In this document: positions 2,772 through 37,003 of the stretch, one piece after another
How the letters are laid out: every line of letters begins with the position of its first letter
Position numbering within the stretch: position 1 is the stretch's first letter
Assembly (NCBI GenBank): GCA_003141715.1
Contig: PLNF01000094.1
Coordinates: 1-37,003 of the forward strand
Length of the DNA: 37,003 nt
Source of the DNA: Bacteroidales bacterium
GTDB taxonomy: Bacteria; Bacteroidota; Bacteroidia; Bacteroidales; VadinHA17
Direction of reading: 5' to 3'
Made by a program: the position numbers and the translations under genes
The notes under the pieces: model-generated
What the model saw: the letters and a program-made list of their open reading frames with translations, nothing else
What the model was told of the DNA's origin: nothing
Database searches by the model: none

Positions 2772-4223
2772 TTAGTACCACTTTAGTGTTTTCCCCTTTG
2801 TTCTTGCATTATCGAAATAAAGATTGTATGAAGCTCCAAATCTTAACCATACAGGACCGATATGATAAAAATCAGAATTCATGTAATCGGCACCGAGCGA
2901 AAATGAAAGATCCTTCTTTGTCCATTTAAATGAGAAAGCCGGAATAACCATGAATTTATTTGGAGGTACAATTAAGGTCCCTTTAAGCTCATTTCCAAAA
3001 GCATAACCTGCTGACAGTGATGTTGAAAATTCAAAATTGCCTCGGAAAGGATAATCGGTAAGGGAAAAATCTTTAAACAATCCTGCATAAACAACCGAGC
3101 CTTTATTCATGTACTGATAGAACATATGTTCAGATTGTTTAAGCAAAACCCTTGTATACCATAATTTAATATCACACCCCAAAATAATTCCTCCGTTCAG
3201 ATATGGTTCCTTGAATGAAAGACTTGCTCCGGTATAAATATCATGTAGAAAAAACCTGGAGGAGGCCATCATATCTACCTGGTCAATTTCATACTTAATC
3301 TTCCCGGGAATCTTATTGTCTTCAAGGATCTTGAGGATATCTTTTCTACGGTATTTTGATGCTACACTATAAGGATTTATAGCATTACTTCCCTGGCTAG
3401 CCCATTTGTTGCCGATTTTAAGCAGATATTCTGTTGCATCTCTTTGATCAGCAATTATAGTAAGCGCCAGGGCATTGTGATTCGAAGTATTAGTTGCATA
3501 AATATCTACGCCTTTACTAAAGAGAAGCCGCATTATCAAAGTATCACCATTCATGGCAGCCATCAGAAAAGGCGTATAACCTTCATTATCTCTTGCCTCC
3601 AGATTGGCACCTTTCTGAATCAGAAGATCCGCAATATCAGCATAACCCGCCCATATTGATGCCAGTAGAGGTGTAGATCCTTCAATTGTCTTTTTATCTA
3701 TCGAAGCTTCATAATAAAGGAGCATGTCGACAGTCTGAAAGTATCCGTATACTGATGCATAATGAAGAGACGTAGCACCATATTTGTCAGTAGCATCAAT
3801 ATCAGCTCCGGCTCTTATCAGGGCTTCGGCAATTTCTGCATTCTGATTTTTTACAGCCATAAGAAGCGGAGTTACCTGCTGTGTCGTCACCTTATTTACA
3901 TCTGAACCGTAATCAATGAGTATCTTAGCAACATCAGTCTGGTTGTTGGAAACCGCAAAAACGAGAGGTGTGGCGCCTTGATCAGTTTCTGCAAATACAT
4001 CGGCTCCATTCTGGATAAGACGGTTTATTTCCAGGGTGTATCCTTTAGAAGCAGCAATCATCAGGTTGTAGTCGATTGCACCCTTATAAAATTCTGGAAT
4101 ATAATCAGTTGTATCATATGATGCTGTATCAGGTTTTGTAACTTGTGAATGCACACCTCCTGATATGAATAGTAGTGTCAGTGCAAAAAGAATCCGTATA
4201 TTTTGTAGCCTAATTGACAGCAT
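2772..4223 (-). CDS. Secreted ankyrin-repeat protein with C-terminal beta-barrel-like domain
   Basis: The 483-residue protein has an N-terminal signal peptide (hydrophobic ILFALTLLFISGG, cut near HSQ). Residues about 50-300 hold seven or so ankyrin repeats, recognisable by GATPLVFAV, VTPLLMAV, GATSLHYAS, GSTPLLASI and GYTPFLMAA, each with the usual ILIDYGSDV-type second helix. From about residue 315 the sequence changes to alternating aromatic and polar strands typical of an outer-membrane barrel (GASLSFKEPYLNGGIILG, FEFSTSLSAGYAFG, WLRFGASYNLYF), ending KWY. An export signal, ankyrin repeats and a barrel in one chain is uncommon; the repeats would face the periplasm or the surface. It leads an operon with two lipoproteins. 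A CAAAGTTA box (TAACTTTG on the coding strand) lies at 4230-4237, leaving a very short leader. Confidence 0.82.
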   Translation of the reverse strand: MLSIRLQNIRILFALTLLFISGGVHSQVTKPDTASYDTTDYIPEFYKGAIDYNLMIAASKGYTLEINRLIQNGADVFAETDQGATPLVFAVSNNQTDVAKILIDYGSDVNKVTTQQVTPLLMAVKNQNAEIAEALIRAGADIDATDKYGATSLHYASVYGYFQTVDMLLYYEASIDKKTIEGSTPLLASIWAGYADIADLLIQKGANLEARDNEGYTPFLMAAMNGDTLIMRLLFSKGVDIYATNTSNHNALALTIIADQRDATEYLLKIGNKWASQGSNAINPYSVASKYRRKDILKILEDNKIPGKIKYEIDQVDMMASSRFFLHDIYTGASLSFKEPYLNGGIILGCDIKLWYTRVLLKQSEHMFYQYMNKGSVVYAGLFKDFSLTDYPFRGNFEFSTSLSAGYAFGNELKGTLIVPPNKFMVIPAFSFKWTKKDLSFSLGADYMNSDFYHIGPVWLRFGASYNLYFDNARTKGKTLKWY

Positions 4224-30412: not shown

Positions 30413-30461
30413 TTTATAAAATCTTTATATGTTCTTAAGTAATCTTTATACATTATTTATG
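30413..30461 (+). promoter_or_regulatory. Four-half-site TTTATR operator upstream of the KimA-like gene
   Basis: Half-sites are TTTATA at 30413, TTTATA at 30424, TTTATA at 30445 and TTTATG at 30456. Start-to-start spacings are 11, 21 and 11 bases, so all face nearly the same side of the helix. The last site ends 10 bases before the -7 box. The same layout occurs at 32747-32795. Direct repeats of 11 bases are typical of OmpR/PhoB-class regulators, and the E. coli KdpE site, as I recall it, is TTTATA-N5-TTTACA. Confidence 0.68.
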
Positions 30462-30471
30462 GACATTAGAT

Positions 30472-30479
30472 TAATTTTG
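30472..30479 (+). promoter_or_regulatory. -7 box (TAATTTTG) of the KimA-like gene
   Basis: A perfect TAnnTTTG match. The place of the -33 element is taken by TTTATR half-sites, as expected for an activator-dependent promoter. The leader to ATG 30561 is about 75 bases. Confidence 0.62.
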
Positions 30480-30560
30480 CGCGATTTATTTGCTGTGAGG
30501 TTTGATTTGTGAAACCCTTTAGTTGAGGAAAATGTTAAGGTGATTATAGACAGGAAGCAT

Positions 30561-32567
30561 ATGGAGAATTCAACTGGAGGATTTACATTTTATGAAAAAC
30601 TCAAAAATACTTTTATTGGTAAGGCCAAACTCATTCAGGACAAAGGGTTATTTCATAAATTAACATTAGTAGCATTTTTTGCCTGGATCGGGCTGGGTGC
30701 TGACGGCATATCATCATCATGTTATGGGCCGGAAGAGGCATACCGGAATTTACTGGGGCATCCTAGTTTAGCCATATTTGTTGCACTTGGTACCGTATTT
30801 ACTATTATAATAATTAGTTCCAGTTACAACCAGATAGTCCGTCTTTTTCCACATGGCGGCGGGGGATATCTGGTTGGAAGTAAACTGTTATCGCCGACAA
30901 CCGGAATGATTTCCGGTTCTGCCCTTATAATCGACTATGTTCTTACAATTACACTATCCGTATCCAGCGGTGCTGATGCTCTTTTTAGTTTTTTTCCGGT
31001 TGAATTGCAACCTTTTAAACTCCCTTTTGCCCTTGCCGGAGTTTGTTTTCTTATTTTGTTAAACTTAAGAGGTGTTAAGGAGTCGGTACTCTCTCTTACT
31101 CCAATATTTATAGTCTTCATCACTACTCACGTCATTGCCATTTTATATGGTATTTTTATTCACTCCTCTCATTTTGCTGCAGTTGCCAGTCAGACTACAC
31201 ATGAAATTCATTCAACTGTCAATCAATTTGGCTTTTTTGCTACATTCTTTATAATTCTTCGGGCATACAGCATGGGAGCTGGAACCTACACCGGAATTGA
31301 AGCTGTAAGTAATGGTATGCCCATTCTTCGTGAGCCTAAAGTTGCGACAGCCCGGAAAACCATGTTTTTAATGGTGATCTCACTTTCGTTTATGGTGTTA
31401 GGCCTGATGATTTGTTATATGCTTTTTAATGTACAGCTCGATACTCACAAAACCTTAAATGCTGTATTACTGGATAATCTGACAGCAGGTTGGGGTTATT
31501 TCTGGTCGAGAAGTTTTGTCCTTATTACACTTATTTCGGAAGCTGCATTGTTATTTGTTGCCGCTCAGACAGGATTTATCGATGGACCAAGAATTATGGC
31601 AAATATGGCAATAGATCATTGGTTTCCAAAAAGATTTGCTTCCCTCAGCGATCGCCTGGTAACAATGAACGGAGTTTTATTAATGGGTACCGGATCTCTT
31701 ATTATAATGGTTTTATCTAAAGGGTCAGTTGCATTCCTGGTTGTTCTATATAGTATTAATGTGTTCATTACGTTTACCATTTCCCAGGTAGGAATGGTAA
31801 AACATTGGTGGCAGATGCGAGGGAAGCCATTACCATGGAAACGTAAATTAGCTATAAACGGAATAGGCCTGATACTTACATCCTTTATACTGACCTCCGT
31901 AATCATTATTAAATTTGGACAAGGTGGTTGGGTCACCTTACTTATTACTGGTTTACTGATCTTATTAGCTGTAAATATTAAGCGCCATTATTTTAAAACT
32001 GCATTAAAACTTCAGAAGCTTAGATTAAGCGCTTTCAAGGAAATTGAAAAGTTGATCGGGCAGCGTCCGTGCGAAGACAGGAGTCTGAAAAGGGTTAGTT
32101 TTAACAAACAGGGCAGAACTGCAATTATATTAGTCAGTGGTTTTGGTGGAACCGGATTATATACATTTTTACGAATTCTCGAAAACTTTAAAGGTGTATA
32201 TAATAATATAGTTTTTGTAAGGATTGGCATTATTAATTCTAAAATTTACAGAGGCACCGTGGAACTGGAACATTTTAAGCAGCAGGTAAAAGAGGACGGC
32301 GAAAAGTATGTTAATGTTGCCAATCAATTCGGTTTGTATGGGAAAAGTCTATGGACAATTGGAACAGACCCCGTAAACGAAATCTACCGGATTGTGAAAA
32401 GAATAAGGCCAAGATTGTCAGGTGCGGCTTTTTTCGGTGGTCAATTGGTTTTCTCGAAAACATTTTATCTTTCTAAATTATTACATAACCACACCATTTT
32501 TTCCATTCAAAAGAGGTTTTTTAAATTTGGTATCCCAATAGTTATATTCCCTATTAAAATTGAATAA
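30561..32567 (+). CDS. KimA-like (APC/KUP-type) potassium transporter
   Basis: From ATG 30561 the protein has 668 residues: twelve or so predicted membrane helices, then a cytoplasmic C-terminal domain of about 160 residues. It follows Bacillus subtilis KimA: GLGADGISSSCYGPEEA (KimA has SSDALSSVAYGTEQ, with the Asp kept as Asp48), YNQIVRLFPHGGGGYLVGS, LIIDYVLTITLSVSSGADAL, and GTYTGIEAVSNGMP. KimA is a high-affinity proton-coupled potassium importer. The C-terminal part (GRTAIILVSGFGGTGLYTFL onward) is USP-like and diverges from KimA. I preferred this ATG, with AGGA at 30552-30555 upstream, to the GTG at 30540. Amino-acid transport is the alternative in this superfamily, but the operator shared with kdp supports potassium. 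Confidence 0.8.
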   Translation: MENSTGGFTFYEKLKNTFIGKAKLIQDKGLFHKLTLVAFFAWIGLGADGISSSCYGPEEAYRNLLGHPSLAIFVALGTVFTIIIISSSYNQIVRLFPHGGGGYLVGSKLLSPTTGMISGSALIIDYVLTITLSVSSGADALFSFFPVELQPFKLPFALAGVCFLILLNLRGVKESVLSLTPIFIVFITTHVIAILYGIFIHSSHFAAVASQTTHEIHSTVNQFGFFATFFIILRAYSMGAGTYTGIEAVSNGMPILREPKVATARKTMFLMVISLSFMVLGLMICYMLFNVQLDTHKTLNAVLLDNLTAGWGYFWSRSFVLITLISEAALLFVAAQTGFIDGPRIMANMAIDHWFPKRFASLSDRLVTMNGVLLMGTGSLIIMVLSKGSVAFLVVLYSINVFITFTISQVGMVKHWWQMRGKPLPWKRKLAINGIGLILTSFILTSVIIIKFGQGGWVTLLITGLLILLAVNIKRHYFKTALKLQKLRLSAFKEIEKLIGQRPCEDRSLKRVSFNKQGRTAIILVSGFGGTGLYTFLRILENFKGVYNNIVFVRIGIINSKIYRGTVELEHFKQQVKEDGEKYVNVANQFGLYGKSLWTIGTDPVNEIYRIVKRIRPRLSGAAFFGGQLVFSKTFYLSKLLHNHTIFSIQKRFFKFGIPIVIFPIKIE

Positions 32568-32579
32568 ACTACCCCTTAA

Positions 32580-32630
32580 TCCCCCAAGGGGGACTTCTAA
32601 GACGTTTATTGATAGTAGCTTCACTACTAT
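32580..32630. repeat. Inverted repeats after the KimA-like gene
   Basis: TCCCCC-AA-GGGGGA (32580-32593) and ATAGTAG-CTTCA-CTACTAT (32612-32630) lie within 65 bases of the stop. Neither is followed by a T-run. They may end the transcript or be repeat units; C-rich and G-rich tracts recur at 32676-32701. The rest of the 292-base gap to 32860 is AT-rich and carries the kdp operator and promoter. Confidence 0.45.
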
Positions 32631-32746
32631 ATAATTACTGAAAGAAAAAATAAATTTAAGTGTAAGTAAAATCATTAAACCCCCTTGGATGATTTTGGGG
32701 TATCCCATTGTGTTTTGGCGTCAATTTCTTACAAATCCCATGGGTA

Positions 32747-32795
32747 TTTATGAAATCTTTATGGTTAAGTTCTTCATTTTTATAAAACCCTTATA
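32747..32795 (+). promoter_or_regulatory. Four-half-site TTTATR operator upstream of the barrel-kdp operon
   Basis: Half-sites are TTTATG at 32747, TTTATG at 32758, TTTATA at 32779 and CTTATA at 32790, with spacings of 11, 21 and 11 bases. The five bases between the first two sites (AAATC) are identical to those at the KimA-like operator. Every element is displaced by exactly 2334 bases from its counterpart upstream of the KimA-like gene. Confidence 0.68.
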
Positions 32796-32805
32796 AATTC
32801 GGTCG

Positions 32806-32813
32806 CAACTTTG
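32806..32813 (+). promoter_or_regulatory. -7 box (CAACTTTG) of the barrel-kdp operon
   Basis: Seven of eight positions match TAnnTTTG. Its distance from the last half-site (10 bases) equals that at the KimA-like promoter, which supports the call despite the mismatch. The leader to ATG 32860 is about 40 bases. Confidence 0.58.
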
Positions 32814-32859: not shown

Positions 32860-33630
32860 ATGAAAAGGGAAATTAAACAAATCATTCTATCTATCTCATT
32901 TTTATTGGTATGTATGAATACTATTGTTACAGGTACGCCTTCGACACAAATTTGGATTATCTCCACCGACCTTCAGAAATTTAAAACTTTGCATCTGGGT
33001 ATTGACAACTATTTCAGATTAGAGAATCAGGCTTATCATAGCCGCGGTGCTGGCATATTCGATTGTGGACTTACAGCAGGTGTTCTCCCTTTTAAGAAAC
33101 TGCAGGCTGAAGTTGGTATTGATTATCTTAATATGGGCGATGGTATTTACGATACTAATCCGATTTATTTCAATGCTAAAATAGGTACTCCGGAAGGCGC
33201 TCTATTTAAGGGTTCACCGGCTATTGCCTTTGGCGGTTATAATTTTGGCACGAAAACCAACCTTACCAGTTACAATGTGGCCTACGCTTTGATTGCCAAA
33301 ACAATACCAATCATCGGTAGAGTTTCAGCAGGTTATTATTATGGGAATGATAAACTGCTTGTTGATGAGAATAATAAGAAATCAAACAACGGAATTTTGC
33401 TGTCTTTAGATCGTCAATTGACAGAAATATCAGACAAACTCTGGATGGCAATTGATTACCAGGGTGGTAAGAGTTATCTGGGAGCTTTAAATGTTGGCTT
33501 TTCATGGTCGTTCTCGTCAAACGTTTCTGTTATTTTTGCTTATGATGTTTATAATAACAACAAAGCTTATTATAATAGCAAGGATGTCAATGTTAATTCT
33601 ATAACAATGCAACTTGATATCAATTTTTAA
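32860..33630 (+). CDS. Outer-membrane beta-barrel protein heading the kdp operon
   Basis: The 256-residue protein has a signal peptide (IKQIILSISFLLVCMNTIVTG). Amphipathic beta strands with aromatic girdles follow: FKTLHLGIDNYFRLEN, IFDCGLTAGVLP, LQAEVGIDYLNMG, IYFNAKIGTPEG, NVAYALIAKTIPIIGRVSAGY, quoted in part as IIGRVSAGYYYGNDKL, LGALNVGFSWSFSSNVSVIF and the C-terminal SITMQLDINF ending in Phe. The strand number suggests 10-12 strands. It is the first gene after the kdp-type operator and lies 100 bases upstream of kdpF on the same strand. An outer-membrane channel for potassium entry is a reasonable inference, but I know of no proven function for this protein type. Confidence 0.78.
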   Translation: MKREIKQIILSISFLLVCMNTIVTGTPSTQIWIISTDLQKFKTLHLGIDNYFRLENQAYHSRGAGIFDCGLTAGVLPFKKLQAEVGIDYLNMGDGIYDTNPIYFNAKIGTPEGALFKGSPAIAFGGYNFGTKTNLTSYNVAYALIAKTIPIIGRVSAGYYYGNDKLLVDENNKKSNNGILLSLDRQLTEISDKLWMAIDYQGGKSYLGALNVGFSWSFSSNVSVIFAYDVYNNNKAYYNSKDVNVNSITMQLDINF

Positions 33631-33730
33631 TCTTAAACAAAAACCCGGACCACAGAAAATTCACAATCATCAGAATGCCAATATTAGTTTTTTTTTATAT
33701 GCTTCCACTTATTTTTGTATCTCGTTTAAT

Positions 33731-33904
33731 ATGAAAATTATGAAAACAAAATTTACAACATCGTTTATGTCTCTTGTAGTTGTACCTGTCCACTCAGATA
33801 CGGCTGTCTCAAACGGTCCGATAAGTTATATTATCGGAGGAATTATAGCCCTGTTGATCATGGGATATTTGATATACACTTTATTACGACCCGATAAATT
33901 TTAA
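33731..33904 (+). CDS. kdpF: Potassium-transporting ATPase subunit KdpF, N-terminally extended
   Basis: KdpF is a one-helix peptide that stabilises the KdpFABC complex; it is usually about 29 residues. The C-terminal 27 residues here (YIIGGIIALLIMGYLIYTLL ending RPDKF) match it well, including the LLRPDKF end. From ATG 33731 the product has 57 residues, and the extra N-terminal part (MKTKFTTSFMSLVVVPVHSD) could be an additional hydrophobic segment or signal. ATG 33740 is an alternative start; no ATG lies directly before the core. The frame is open further upstream to 33614 but that region overlaps the barrel gene's 3' end. kdpA starts 10 bases later. Confidence 0.8.
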   Translation: MKIMKTKFTTSFMSLVVVPVHSDTAVSNGPISYIIGGIIALLIMGYLIYTLLRPDKF

Positions 33905-33914
33905 TGCGAAAAAT

Positions 33915-35600
33915 ATGAATGAAGCTATTCAATTGATCCTTTTCCTGGTTTTGCTGGCTGTCCTGTCACCTTTATTAGGCAAGTATATGGCAAAGGTTTT
34001 TATGGGTGAAAAACATATTATGATTCCGGTTTTTGGATGGCTGGAAAAACTGGTTTACAGGATATCAGGTGTTAAAAGTGAGGAGGAGATGAACTGGAAG
34101 ATCTATATGTATGGTGTTCTCCTTTTCAACCTGTTTGGATTTGTATTTTTGTATCTTTTGCAGATATTCCAGGCTTATTTGCCGCTGAACACTGAGAAAT
34201 TGCCTAATGTTTCCTGGCATCTTGCATTTAATACTGCTATGAGTTTTACTACCAACACCAACTGGCAATCGTACAGCGGTGAAAATACCCTGAGTTACCT
34301 GGTACAGATGCTGGGGCTGACTGTCCAGAATTTTGTCAGCGCGGCAACCGGAATAGCAGTTGTACTGGCATTAATGCGAGGCCTGACCAGAAAAACTACT
34401 GATGCTCTGGGTAATTTTTGGGCTGATATGACCCGGAGTGTCCTTTATGTGTTATTGCCACTCGCTATTATTCTCACATTAGCTTTGGTAGGACAGGGTG
34501 CCGTGCAGACATTTTCGCATTATGTCAAAGCGACCACTTTACAGGGAACTGAGCAGGTTATTCCGTTAGGTCCGGCAGCATCGCAGATTGCAATTAAACA
34601 ACTGGGGACAAACGGTGGGGGCTTCTTTGGAGCGAACAGTGCACATCCCTTTGAAAATCCAACACCTTTTTCCAACTTTTTAGAATTGTTTGCCATAATC
34701 ATTATCTCAGCTGGTTTAGTATTTACGTTCGGTCATTATATGAAATCCAAACGCCAGGCGAGGGCGATATTTATTACAATGTTTATCCTCTTTGCTTTGG
34801 GTCTTGCAATATCACTCTGGGCCGAGTACGGTCATAACAATGTATTAAATGTTTCAGGTTCAATGGAAGGAAAAGAGACCCGATTTGGCGTTATGAACAG
34901 TGTCCTGTGGTCTGTTACTACCACTGTTACATCGAATGGTTCCGTGAATGCAATGCATGACAGTTTATCTCCATTATCAGGTTTGGTAGCCATGTTCAAC
35001 CTGATGCTTGGTGAAATCATTTTTGGAGGGGTAGGATCGGGTTTATATGGGATAATCATCTTTATTTTACTTACAGTTTTTATTGCAGGGTTAATGGTTG
35101 GACGAACACCTGAGTATCTTGGGAAAAAAGTGGAAGCTTACGAGATGAAGATGACCATTCTTGCAATTTTAGCTCCAGCTATCGTGATCAAATTATTTTC
35201 GGCGATTGCCTGCTCAATCCCTGCAGGAATATCAGGTCTCAATAATGCAGGACCTCATGGCCTCTCAGAAATATTATACGCATTCAGTTCGGCTGCCGGA
35301 AATAATGGGAGTGCATTTGGAGGGCTCAATACGAACACAGTTTTTTATAACCTGATGTTAGGTTTTGGTATGCTTATAGGTCGTTTTGGGATTATTATAC
35401 CGGTAATGGCTATTGCGGGCAGCATGGCTAAGAAAAAAGTCACCCCGGTTTCATCAGGTACTTTCAGGACTGACAACTGGTTGTTTGTGATGTTGCTGAT
35501 AAGTGTTATTCTTATTGTCGGAGGGTTGACCTTTTTTCCTCCTCTGGCACTTGGACCGATAGTTGAACATTTCTTAATGAATTTGGGTGTTACTTTTTAG
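33915..35600 (+). CDS. kdpA: Potassium-transporting ATPase subunit KdpA
   Basis: KdpA is the channel-like subunit of the high-affinity KdpFABC pump and forms the selectivity filter. The 561-residue length equals that of known KdpA proteins. Filter and conserved regions are visible: TNTNWQSYSGENTLSYLVQM (about 115-134), GTNGGGFFGANSAHPFENP (near 235), VTSNGSVNAMHDSLSPLSG (near 340) and AGNNGSAFGGLNTNTVFYN (near 465). The N-terminus (AIQLILFLVLLAVLSPLLGKY) is the first membrane helix, quoted in part as LILFLVLLAVLSPLLGKY. It sits between kdpF (10 bases) and kdpB (18 bases) in the usual order. Confidence 0.97.
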   Translation: MNEAIQLILFLVLLAVLSPLLGKYMAKVFMGEKHIMIPVFGWLEKLVYRISGVKSEEEMNWKIYMYGVLLFNLFGFVFLYLLQIFQAYLPLNTEKLPNVSWHLAFNTAMSFTTNTNWQSYSGENTLSYLVQMLGLTVQNFVSAATGIAVVLALMRGLTRKTTDALGNFWADMTRSVLYVLLPLAIILTLALVGQGAVQTFSHYVKATTLQGTEQVIPLGPAASQIAIKQLGTNGGGFFGANSAHPFENPTPFSNFLELFAIIIISAGLVFTFGHYMKSKRQARAIFITMFILFALGLAISLWAEYGHNNVLNVSGSMEGKETRFGVMNSVLWSVTTTVTSNGSVNAMHDSLSPLSGLVAMFNLMLGEIIFGGVGSGLYGIIIFILLTVFIAGLMVGRTPEYLGKKVEAYEMKMTILAILAPAIVIKLFSAIACSIPAGISGLNNAGPHGLSEILYAFSSAAGNNGSAFGGLNTNTVFYNLMLGFGMLIGRFGIIIPVMAIAGSMAKKKVTPVSSGTFRTDNWLFVMLLISVILIVGGLTFFPPLALGPIVEHFLMNLGVTF

Positions 35601-35618: not shown

Positions 35619-37003
35619 ATGGAAAAGCGAAATATGAGTCATCTGTTTACCAGGGAAATAGCTGTACAGGCATTAAAAGATTCTTTTATCAAGCTGAATC
35701 CTGGCGTTCTGGTGAAAAACCCGGTTATTTTTATTGTAGGCATTGGAGCACTTATGACAACAGTGGTTGTATTTACTGATGTTTTAAGTAGTCATTTTTC
35801 TAACTTTAACTTTCAGATCACACTCTGGCTATGGTTTACGGTCTTGTTTGCCAATTTTGCCGAAGCAGTTGCTGAAGGTCGCGGTAAGGCGCAGGCAGAT
35901 AGTTTACGTAAAAGCCGTACCCAGACAAAAGCCCGAAAGCTGGTTCATAATAAAGAAGAAATTGTTCTGGCAAATGATTTAAAAAAGGGAGATGTTGTGA
36001 TCTGTGATGCGGGCGATATTATCCCTGCAGATGGAGATGTAATAGATGGAATTGCCAGTGTTGATGAATCAGCAATAACAGGGGAATCAGCGCCTGTAAT
36101 CCGTGAAAGTGGAGGTGACCGCTGTGCTGTTACAGGAGGAACAAAAGTAATCAGTGACAGGATTACTATTAAAGTAACCTCTGAACCTGGCTTTACATTT
36201 CTGGACCGCATAATTGCTTTAGTAGAAGGCGCAAAACGGCAAAAAACACCGAACGAAATTGCATTGATCATCCTCTTGTCAGGTCTTACTATTATATTCC
36301 TGTTAGTAGTTGTTGCTTTGCCGGCATATTTTGGTTATAGTCTGAAAGCTTCAGGTGTATCCGCAAATTACAATCTGACCTTACCAGTTCTGATTTCACT
36401 TCTTGTCTGTCTTATCCCGACGACGATTGGTGGTTTGCTGAGCGCCATAGGAATAAGCGGAATGGACAGACTTTTGCGAAAGAATGTTATTGCAACCAGC
36501 GGTAAGGCCATAGAAGCTGCCGGAGATACTGACGTTTTGCTGCTCGATAAAACAGGAACAATTACCTTAGGGAACCGCATGGCTACGGAGTTTATTCCGG
36601 CAGAAGGATTTACCAAAGAGCAACTGGCTGATGCAGCACAATTAGCATCTCTTGCTGATGAGACGCCGGAAGGTCGGTCGATTGTTGTATTGGCAAAAGA
36701 ACAATTTAATATCAGAGCAAGGGAAATGCAGGCTTTGGATACTGTGTTTGTCCCATTCACTGCCCAAACCAGCATGAGTGGTCTCGACTTAAAGAACCCT
36801 GATGGTCAGTTGCGAAGTATCCGGAAAGGCTCTTCCAGCGCAATAAGAAAATTCATTGAAAACAATAATGGATTTTTCCCAAAAAATGTAGAAGAGATTG
36901 TATCTGAACTTTCACGTCAGGGAGCCACTCCGTTAGTTGTTGCAGAAAATAACCAGGTACTGGGTGTCATACACCTGAAAGATATAGTGAAGGGTGGTAT
37001 TAA
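35619..37003 (+). CDS. kdpB: Potassium-transporting ATPase subunit KdpB, 3' end outside window
   Basis: KdpB is the P-type ATPase subunit that hydrolyses ATP to drive potassium import through KdpA. The frame starts at ATG 35619 ([20 protein letters not shown]), 18 bases after kdpA, and runs off the window after 461 codons of an expected 680 or so. Visible motifs are the actuator loop [12 protein letters not shown], the segment [18 protein letters not shown], the ion-path [20 protein letters not shown], and the phosphorylation motif [13 protein letters not shown] with Asp310. The nucleotide domain follows ([13 protein letters not shown], then [14 protein letters not shown] and IRKGSSSAI). The rest of kdpB, and normally kdpC and a kdpDE-type sensor system, should lie beyond 37003. 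Confidence 0.96.

Follow-up and report, generated by a model that had tools for sequence, protein, structure and literature searches.

In Escherichia coli, the regulator KdpE recognizes the direct repeat TTTATA-N5-TTTACA, and this site is a single pair of half-sites, which the KdpE DNA-binding domain binds independently and roughly equally (PMC3264566). For Bacteroides, sigma-ABfr promoters have a published consensus with TTTG at -33 and TAnnTTTG at -7 (PMC7366714). A 2024 paper states that kdp genes without a known full-length KdpD, riboswitch or separate kinase could be constitutive or controlled by a mechanism not yet identified (PMC11018627). Here we describe two sites in a stretch of 37,003 nucleotides from a Bacteroidales bacterium (the window; bases 1-37003 of the 39,733-base contig C141), one located upstream of a gene for a KimA-like potassium (K+) importer and the other upstream of a presumed kdp operon. 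In each site, a KdpE operator is very probably coupled to a promoter of the Bacteroidota type, and we believe with the same confidence that the two belong to a KdpE regulon that is controlled through a doubled, promoter-proximal operator.

Anatomy of the two operators

Within each operator are two 11-bp direct-repeat pairs of half-sites whose starts lie 32 bp apart, or about three turns of the DNA (Table 1). A first-pass annotation of this DNA had located the half-sites and the -7 boxes at both loci, and these positions proved correct to the base, as did its observation that all five elements recur at a constant offset of 2334 bases while the intervening sequence differs. Its comparison of the half-sites with the E. 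coli KdpE site also holds, given that the half-sites and the 11-bp repeat equal those of the published site. The gap between the two pairs of operator 1 is 15 nucleotides, a spacing shared by 11 of the 12 operators that precede kdpA in the order (the other has a 14-base gap), and operators at further KdpE loci of the order have a gap of 14 or 15 nucleotides. In addition, the distal pair of operator 1 is preceded by TC, as are most of the distinct sites from named genomes described below.

The -7 box of operator 1 is an exact match to the sigma-ABfr consensus TAnnTTTG, and that of operator 2 reads CAACTTTG. The -33 part of the consensus has no equivalent, in that TTTG is absent 15-24 bases upstream of the -7 box in either window promoter. 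The lack of TTTG at the usual -33 spacing agrees with the earlier inference of an activator that replaces the -33 contact.

When up to three mismatches are permitted, the pattern matches the window only at the two operators (mean of 0.00 matches in 100 dinucleotide shuffles), and the exact pattern has 0 matches on both strands of 55.5 Mb of Markov-shuffled window sequence. The whole-genome scan called for in the first-pass annotation returns two exact matches in the source genome (3.70 Mb in 148 contigs, 94% complete); both are the window operators, which are therefore unique genome-wide. With up to three mismatches, one extra place appears (contig C2), and a reversed control pattern matches at two places. 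A sequence-only model (R1) was built from 45 sites of other genomes, window sites excluded, these being 45 of 86 listed sites and all carrying a -7 box. This model ranks both window sites first in the source genome (E = 7.4e-11 and 3.3e-10). A third model match in this genome (G000:C88, E=0.004) was rejected; it lies antisense inside an open frame, and an identical stretch is present in genome G083.

Association with potassium uptake genes in named genomes

A scan of named genomes for TTTATRAAATCTTTATR, followed by a looser second pair at equal spacing, recovered at least 117 stretches, which form a sample of unknown bias. The matches listed derive from Bacteroidales, Flavobacterium, Chitinophagaceae, Cytophagales and Ignavibacteriales, together with a few from outside Bacteroidota (Rheinheimera, two Nitrospirae, Nitriliruptoria and Methylovulum). 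The 118 sites among the matches listed comprise 103 that have a gene for a K+ importer or a KdpD-type kinase no more than 700 bp downstream, 7 that fall at an edge and 8 others. Under a slightly different edge rule, the association holds for 103 of 112 assessable listed sites, 50 of them having an importer gene in that position. The same rule, applied at the same loci to control positions over 2.5 kb from the sites, gives 35 of 396, and this rate is, if anything, high because the loci tested are K+ neighbourhoods. Thus, the pattern among the matches listed does not occur at many unrelated promoters, the outcome that the first-pass annotation had named as contrary to its proposal. Sites recur both before K+ importers and before operons for a KdpD-type kinase and KdpE, and in several relatives the genes for a DUF4118 kinase and KdpE are located apart from kdp.

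Two further features recur at the listed sites, neither of which was part of the search pattern. The -7 box, in the form.A..TTTG, lies exactly 10 nucleotides past the operator (+59) in 95 of 117 sites among the matches listed. For the 73 distinct listed sites, the TAnnTTTG box at +59 to +66 is matched by T in 54, A in 64, T in 68, T in 72, T in 64 and G in 63, and the TC that precedes the operator is matched by T in 71 and C in 66. The -33 element is again missing, since none of the 59 listed sites with TTTG in the -7 box carries TTTG at 18-22, a range that is ruled out in part by the fixed A of the pattern. The two half-site pairs are also unequally conserved. Over 38 sites, the proximal pair holds 33 of 44 mismatches (25 in the third half-site alone; p=0.0013), and this concentration suggests that the distal pair is a strong anchor and that the proximal pair is weaker and touches the promoter.

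Sites elsewhere precede trkH, trkA, kup, porin and extracytoplasmic function (ECF) sigma genes, a range of targets that the window alone could not reveal. At L109, L135 and L160, the site stands before an operon in which the kdp or kinase/KdpE genes come behind a porin gene or some other gene. BBP2-type porin genes lie behind the operator at L135:1260-2663 (+), near the kinase and KdpE genes, and at L160:803-2284 (-), near kdpA. ECF sigma genes are found directly behind the operator at L099:221-736 (-) in Coprobacter secundus, at L057:913-1464 (-) in a genome of the order, and at L169:2729-3262 (-) in an uncultured member of the Bacteroidales. A KdpE gene is close to the ECF sigma gene in L056, which is on the same contig as L099, and in L057. 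These ECF sigma genes are a hint of a K+-controlled sigma cascade. Three other sites are left without an assignment: L134 has a KdpE-like regulator gene upstream and a weak IS110-like frame downstream, the 191-residue protein at L094 has only weak matches below the cutoff, and the 239-residue protein at L161 has no match.

Outside Bacteroidota, the four-half-site arrangement is seen at L092, L125, L149 and L175, before trkH (Rheinheimera and Nitriliruptoria) or kdpA (two Nitrospirae), and none of these four has the TTTG box at +63.

Recurrence in the family and order

The operator is conserved in relatives of the source organism, as the first-pass proposal requires. With up to two mismatches, 25 of 98 genomes of the family have matches, and many of the annotated family loci precede kdpA, kimA-like, TrkH, Kup or DUF4118 histidine kinase genes; wherever the sequence examined extends far enough, these kinase genes are followed by OmpR-type regulators. 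Pairs of sites about 2.2 kb apart, as in the window, are also present in G083, G075 and G059. Of 96 genomes of the family, 39 contain a match to model R1 at E<=0.01, and when the 30 best-per-genome loci were annotated, the next gene downstream was in most cases kdpA, kimA-like, TrkH, Kup or a kinase gene. A scan of the order with at most one mismatch yields matches in 22 of 295 genomes, and most of the 23 loci annotated precede K+ or kinase/KdpE genes. The order matches L053, L063 and L072 look like chance or low-complexity hits. L072 is the sole order-scan match of genome G291, which is counted among the 19 genomes with operator and KdpE given below; a weaker site precedes its kdpA (L238).

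The best family model match is in G018 (E=1.2e-13). Behind this operator, at the far end of the kdp cluster, is a stand-alone kdpF-like peptide gene (L037:3453-3608, +; ATG at 3453), recognised by eye from the ending of the window KdpF and followed by a 36-residue hydrophobic frame. Only 38 bp separate the other operator of this locus from the kdpA frame, and thus there is no room for kdpF there.

We also examined the distribution from the perspective of the genes. In the order, 21 kdpA genes could be assessed and 12 of them are preceded by an operator, a count that omits L235 (155 bp upstream), L239 (63 bp), L255-L257 (fragments or not kdpA) and the window's own locus, L205. Three of six kimA-like genes of the order carry an operator, another (L260) sits behind a kinase/KdpE operon that carries one (L320), and two have none; L261 (129 bp upstream) and L264 (63 bp) are omitted. 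For the phylum, the 30 best-scoring kdpA matches were drawn and L205 was then excluded, and the 29 other loci include 4 clear sites and 1 partial site, with L207, L208 and L229 left uncounted because they score slightly above shuffles and low in absolute terms. The 900-bp view used for this draw missed even the window's own site, which precedes an upstream gene. The KdpA proteins of nine negative loci are 42-44% identical to the window KdpA, and negative loci at 51-54% also exist. Taken together, the results centred on kdpA, kimA, trkH and kup make the regulon look real, with a membership that is lineage-specific.

The candidate regulator

KdpE is represented in the source genome by a 127-residue C-terminal fragment (C134:1-381) that is 91% identical to the KdpE of a relative, L036. 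The best Protein Data Bank (PDB) match of the L036 protein is E. coli KdpE (E=7.5e-66), followed by an entry labelled only 'DNA-binding response regulator' (8.9e-66); the best entry labelled as a different regulator is MtrA (9.9e-45). Residues R193, R200 and T215, reported to be important for DNA binding (PMC3264566), are kept both in the alignment of the L036 protein and in the source genome fragment, with the numbering being our own and reflecting a two-residue offset for the chain.

The presence of KdpE, called at E<=1e-55, was established in 48 of 295 genomes of the order. These include 19 of the 22 operator genomes versus 29 of the 273 others (Fisher p = 3.4e-14, a value that is only a guide because the genomes are related), and the operator genomes without a detected KdpE are G267, G338 and G375. 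A site is also present at 12 of 23 additional KdpE loci from the order, scored above a threshold that nothing reached on one strand of 4.38 Mb of shuffled sequence, and the targets include kup, trkH, kimA-like, trkA and one kinase gene. The trkA gene (L304:1905-3275, +) has its own operator and lies beside a TrkH-TrkH-kinase-KdpE cluster bearing another. Five of the 11 KdpE loci without a match stop at contig ends (L299, L300, L302, L305 and L308), four were examined without the region upstream of kdpA (L310, L311, L316 and L317), and L306 and L318 are plain negatives in the search for the operator.

Alternative explanations

Several observations weigh against assigning these sites to a KdpE regulon. 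The KdpE of the source genome is a fragment at a contig end, where linkage to kdpD is not seen, and the two trkH genes and one kup gene of this genome have no site with fewer than six mismatches in the loci examined. Furthermore, the -7 box of operator 2 begins with CA rather than TA. Of the 21 kdpA genes assessed in the order, 9 lack the operator, as do most of the 29 kdpA loci sampled from the phylum, and the site at one KdpE locus (L315) points away from the nearest K+ gene. The kinase matches that contribute to the 103 assignments can include other kinases, and 2 of the 103 fall below 30% identity. Finally, AT-rich genomes contain background matches to the loose pattern: the 98 family genomes give 40 matches at up to two mismatches compared to 16 for the reversed control, and the 295 order genomes give 26 at up to one mismatch, with 17 from the reversed pattern, 9 of these falling in a single genome. 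The argument is built on the identity of the genes and on the -7 box, and not only on how often the pattern occurs. This background is what could be cited in favor of chance AT-rich similarity, but the lack of any exact match in the shuffled sequence and the excess of K+ and kinase genes over the control positions give that explanation next to no likelihood. A recent local duplication of a promoter, with no shared regulation, would account for the identical spacing of all elements at two places 2334 bp apart. However, the sequence between the elements differs, pairs at about 2.2 kb recur in three other genomes of the family, and the same anatomy is found at different genes in other lineages, all of which make such a duplication highly improbable.

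It is also quite unlikely that a different member of the OmpR/PhoB family, such as a phosphate regulator, owns the operator. Other members of this family likewise use direct repeats of about 11 bp, and PHO4 and PhoU_div (Pit-/PhoU-like) genes, which diverge from the KimA-like gene, adjoin operator 1 in the window and also in the relatives L034-L036. Yet the Pho box of PhoB is composed of CTGTCAT-type repeats, and the half-sites here read TTTATR. Moreover, the sites are oriented toward the K+ gene, they are found again at K+ genes without any phosphate gene nearby and ahead of operons for a KdpD-type kinase and KdpE, and their half-sites match that of E. coli KdpE. A further possibility is that a KdpE-like regulator represses these promoters, or does both depending on its phosphorylation. 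A repressor could also act from the -33 region, which the proximal pair overlaps, but the absence of a -33 TTTG from the window promoters and from the 59 listed sites suggests a promoter that needs help, and E. coli KdpE activates kdpFABC according to the 2024 paper (PMC11018627). We consider repression quite unlikely.

Genes at the two operators

The product of the gene behind operator 1 is a KimA-like K+ importer with a predicted function in transport; KimA is the one solved structure that it matches at E<=0.001 (6s3k, E=4.7e-62, residues 18-491). Operator 2 is upstream of a run consisting of the gene for a 256-residue protein, kdpF, kdpA, kdpB and kdpC, which we presume to be an operon from the gene order. 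Beyond the window, kdpB is followed by kdpC and a gene for a HAMP/4HB protein, and the contig then stops within the early part of kdpD.

Table 1. Coordinates of operator elements and genes in the window.
Feature	Position	Strand	Details
Distal half-site pair, operator 1	30413..30429	+	TTTATA-N5-TTTATA; half-sites start at 30413 and 30424
Proximal half-site pair, operator 1	30445..30461	+	TTTATA-N5-TTTATG; half-sites start at 30445 and 30456
-7 promoter box, operator 1	30472..30479	+	TAATTTTG, 10 nt past operator
KimA-like K+ importer gene	30540..32567	+	GTG start listed, ATG at 30562 possible; Pfam AA_permease_2
Distal half-site pair, operator 2	32747..32763	+	TTTATG-N5-TTTATG; half-sites start at 32747 and 32758
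Proximal half-site pair, operator 2	32779..32795	+	TTTATA-N5-CTTATA; half-sites start at 32779 and 32790
-7 promoter box, operator 2	32806..32813	+	CAACTTTG, 10 nt past operator
Gene for 256-residue protein	32860..33630	+	First gene of presumed kdp operon
Frame with kdpF at 3' end	33614..33904	+	Pfam Potass_KdpF, E=4.7e-08
kdpA	33915..35600	+	Pfam KdpA, E=4.9e-242
kdpB, first part	35619..37001	+	Continues past window end

The 256-residue protein has no Pfam match and one 90%-identical homologue among the loci compared (L040), and the proteins in the equivalent place before kdpA in L042 and L109 have only 20-21% identity to it. This protein had earlier been labelled a 'barrel'; its single-sequence structure model has a predicted local distance difference test (pLDDT) score of 33 and is not usable. 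The kdpB gene is broken by two N bases at about 37005-37006 of G000:C141, just past the window end. Between kdpC and kdpD is the gene for a 298-residue protein (G000:C141:38262-39158; L033) that has a HAMP domain and a 4HB_MCP match below the cutoff, with no kinase domain. Homologues with 54-80% identity are in the equivalent place in L041, L042, L044, L050 and L052, and this protein is a possible extra sensor input to KdpD.

Proposed mechanism

We favor a mechanism in which a KdpE-like regulator serves as an activator at both promoters. Judging from the literature on KdpE, KdpD would phosphorylate KdpE when K+ is scarce, and phosphorylated KdpE would then bind as two dimers, one per 11-bp pair, on one face of the DNA. 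The better-conserved distal pair would anchor KdpE, and the degenerate proximal pair would occupy the -33 position. Since this position adjoins the -7 box, direct recruitment of RNA polymerase by KdpE is probable (class II activation), with the proximal dimer replacing the -33 contact of the polymerase. A single signal would thereby turn on the kimA-like and kdp genes together in the source genome, and in relatives the same signal would act on trkH, trkA, kup, some porin genes and the genes for KdpD-type kinases and KdpE. Binding of a KdpE-like activator as two tandem dimers at both promoters, the arrangement put forward in the first-pass annotation, is the best-supported reading of these sequences, with KdpE present and the sites located at K+ importers. 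We can only speculate that a doubled site makes the response sharper or higher.

A broader proposal, which we regard as evenly poised between right and wrong, is that a KdpE-type two-component system is the master switch for K+ uptake in much of Bacteroidota and operates through a four-half-site operator that is held at a rigid distance from the -7 box and replaces the -33 element. This cassette would be attached to whichever importers a lineage employs (Kdp, KimA, Trk or Kup), as well as to a stand-alone kdpF and to genes for outer-membrane porins and the sensor; certain Bacteroidales would also have it at an ECF sigma gene, whose product would pass the K+ signal on. The operator provides a signature of the K+ regulon that can be searched for and tested, it predicts the importer that a given species will switch on when K+ runs short, and it offers a clear model for the action of an OmpR/PhoB-family activator on promoters that lack a -33 element.

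Comparison with known systems

A system is already said to exist in which several K+ importers, including KimA, answer to one signal (PMC6488665). The arrangement described here is similar in this regard, in this case through a putative DNA operator of a two-component regulator. The window promoters have the same -7 box as the sigma-ABfr promoters of Bacteroides, whereas the proximal half-site pair is found in place of the -33 TTTG.

A close counterpart is the KdpE site of E. coli kdpFABC, which shares the 6-bp half-sites, the 5-bp spacer, the KdpE homologue and a K+ pump operon as the target (PMC3264566). The E. coli site is one pair, whereas the window operators have two pairs whose starts lie 32 bp apart, are fixed relative to a Bacteroidota -7 box and belong to a class with targets beyond kdp. 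We call the window operator a variant because it has two pairs instead of a single pair. Thus, the half-site, the regulator and kdp as a target are already known. A doubled operator in fixed register with a Bacteroidota promoter, and the wider set of targets (KimA, Trk, Kup, porin and ECF sigma genes), were not encountered in the literature surveyed and are apparently new. Titles and the starts of abstracts in the open-licence literature yielded nothing on KdpE control of kimA, kup or trk, or of the transcription of K+ uptake genes, in Bacteroidota, which is weak evidence of absence.

Lastly, the separate-kinase arrangements covered in the 2024 paper (PMC11018627) have a likeness in the several relatives whose DUF4118 kinase and KdpE genes are apart from kdp. 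The KdpD of the relative L036 has 897 residues, and thus the genus is not an example of the short-KdpD case. Where no separate kinase is known, that paper leaves the transcriptional control of kdp open, and for part of Bacteroidota the doubled operator offers an answer.

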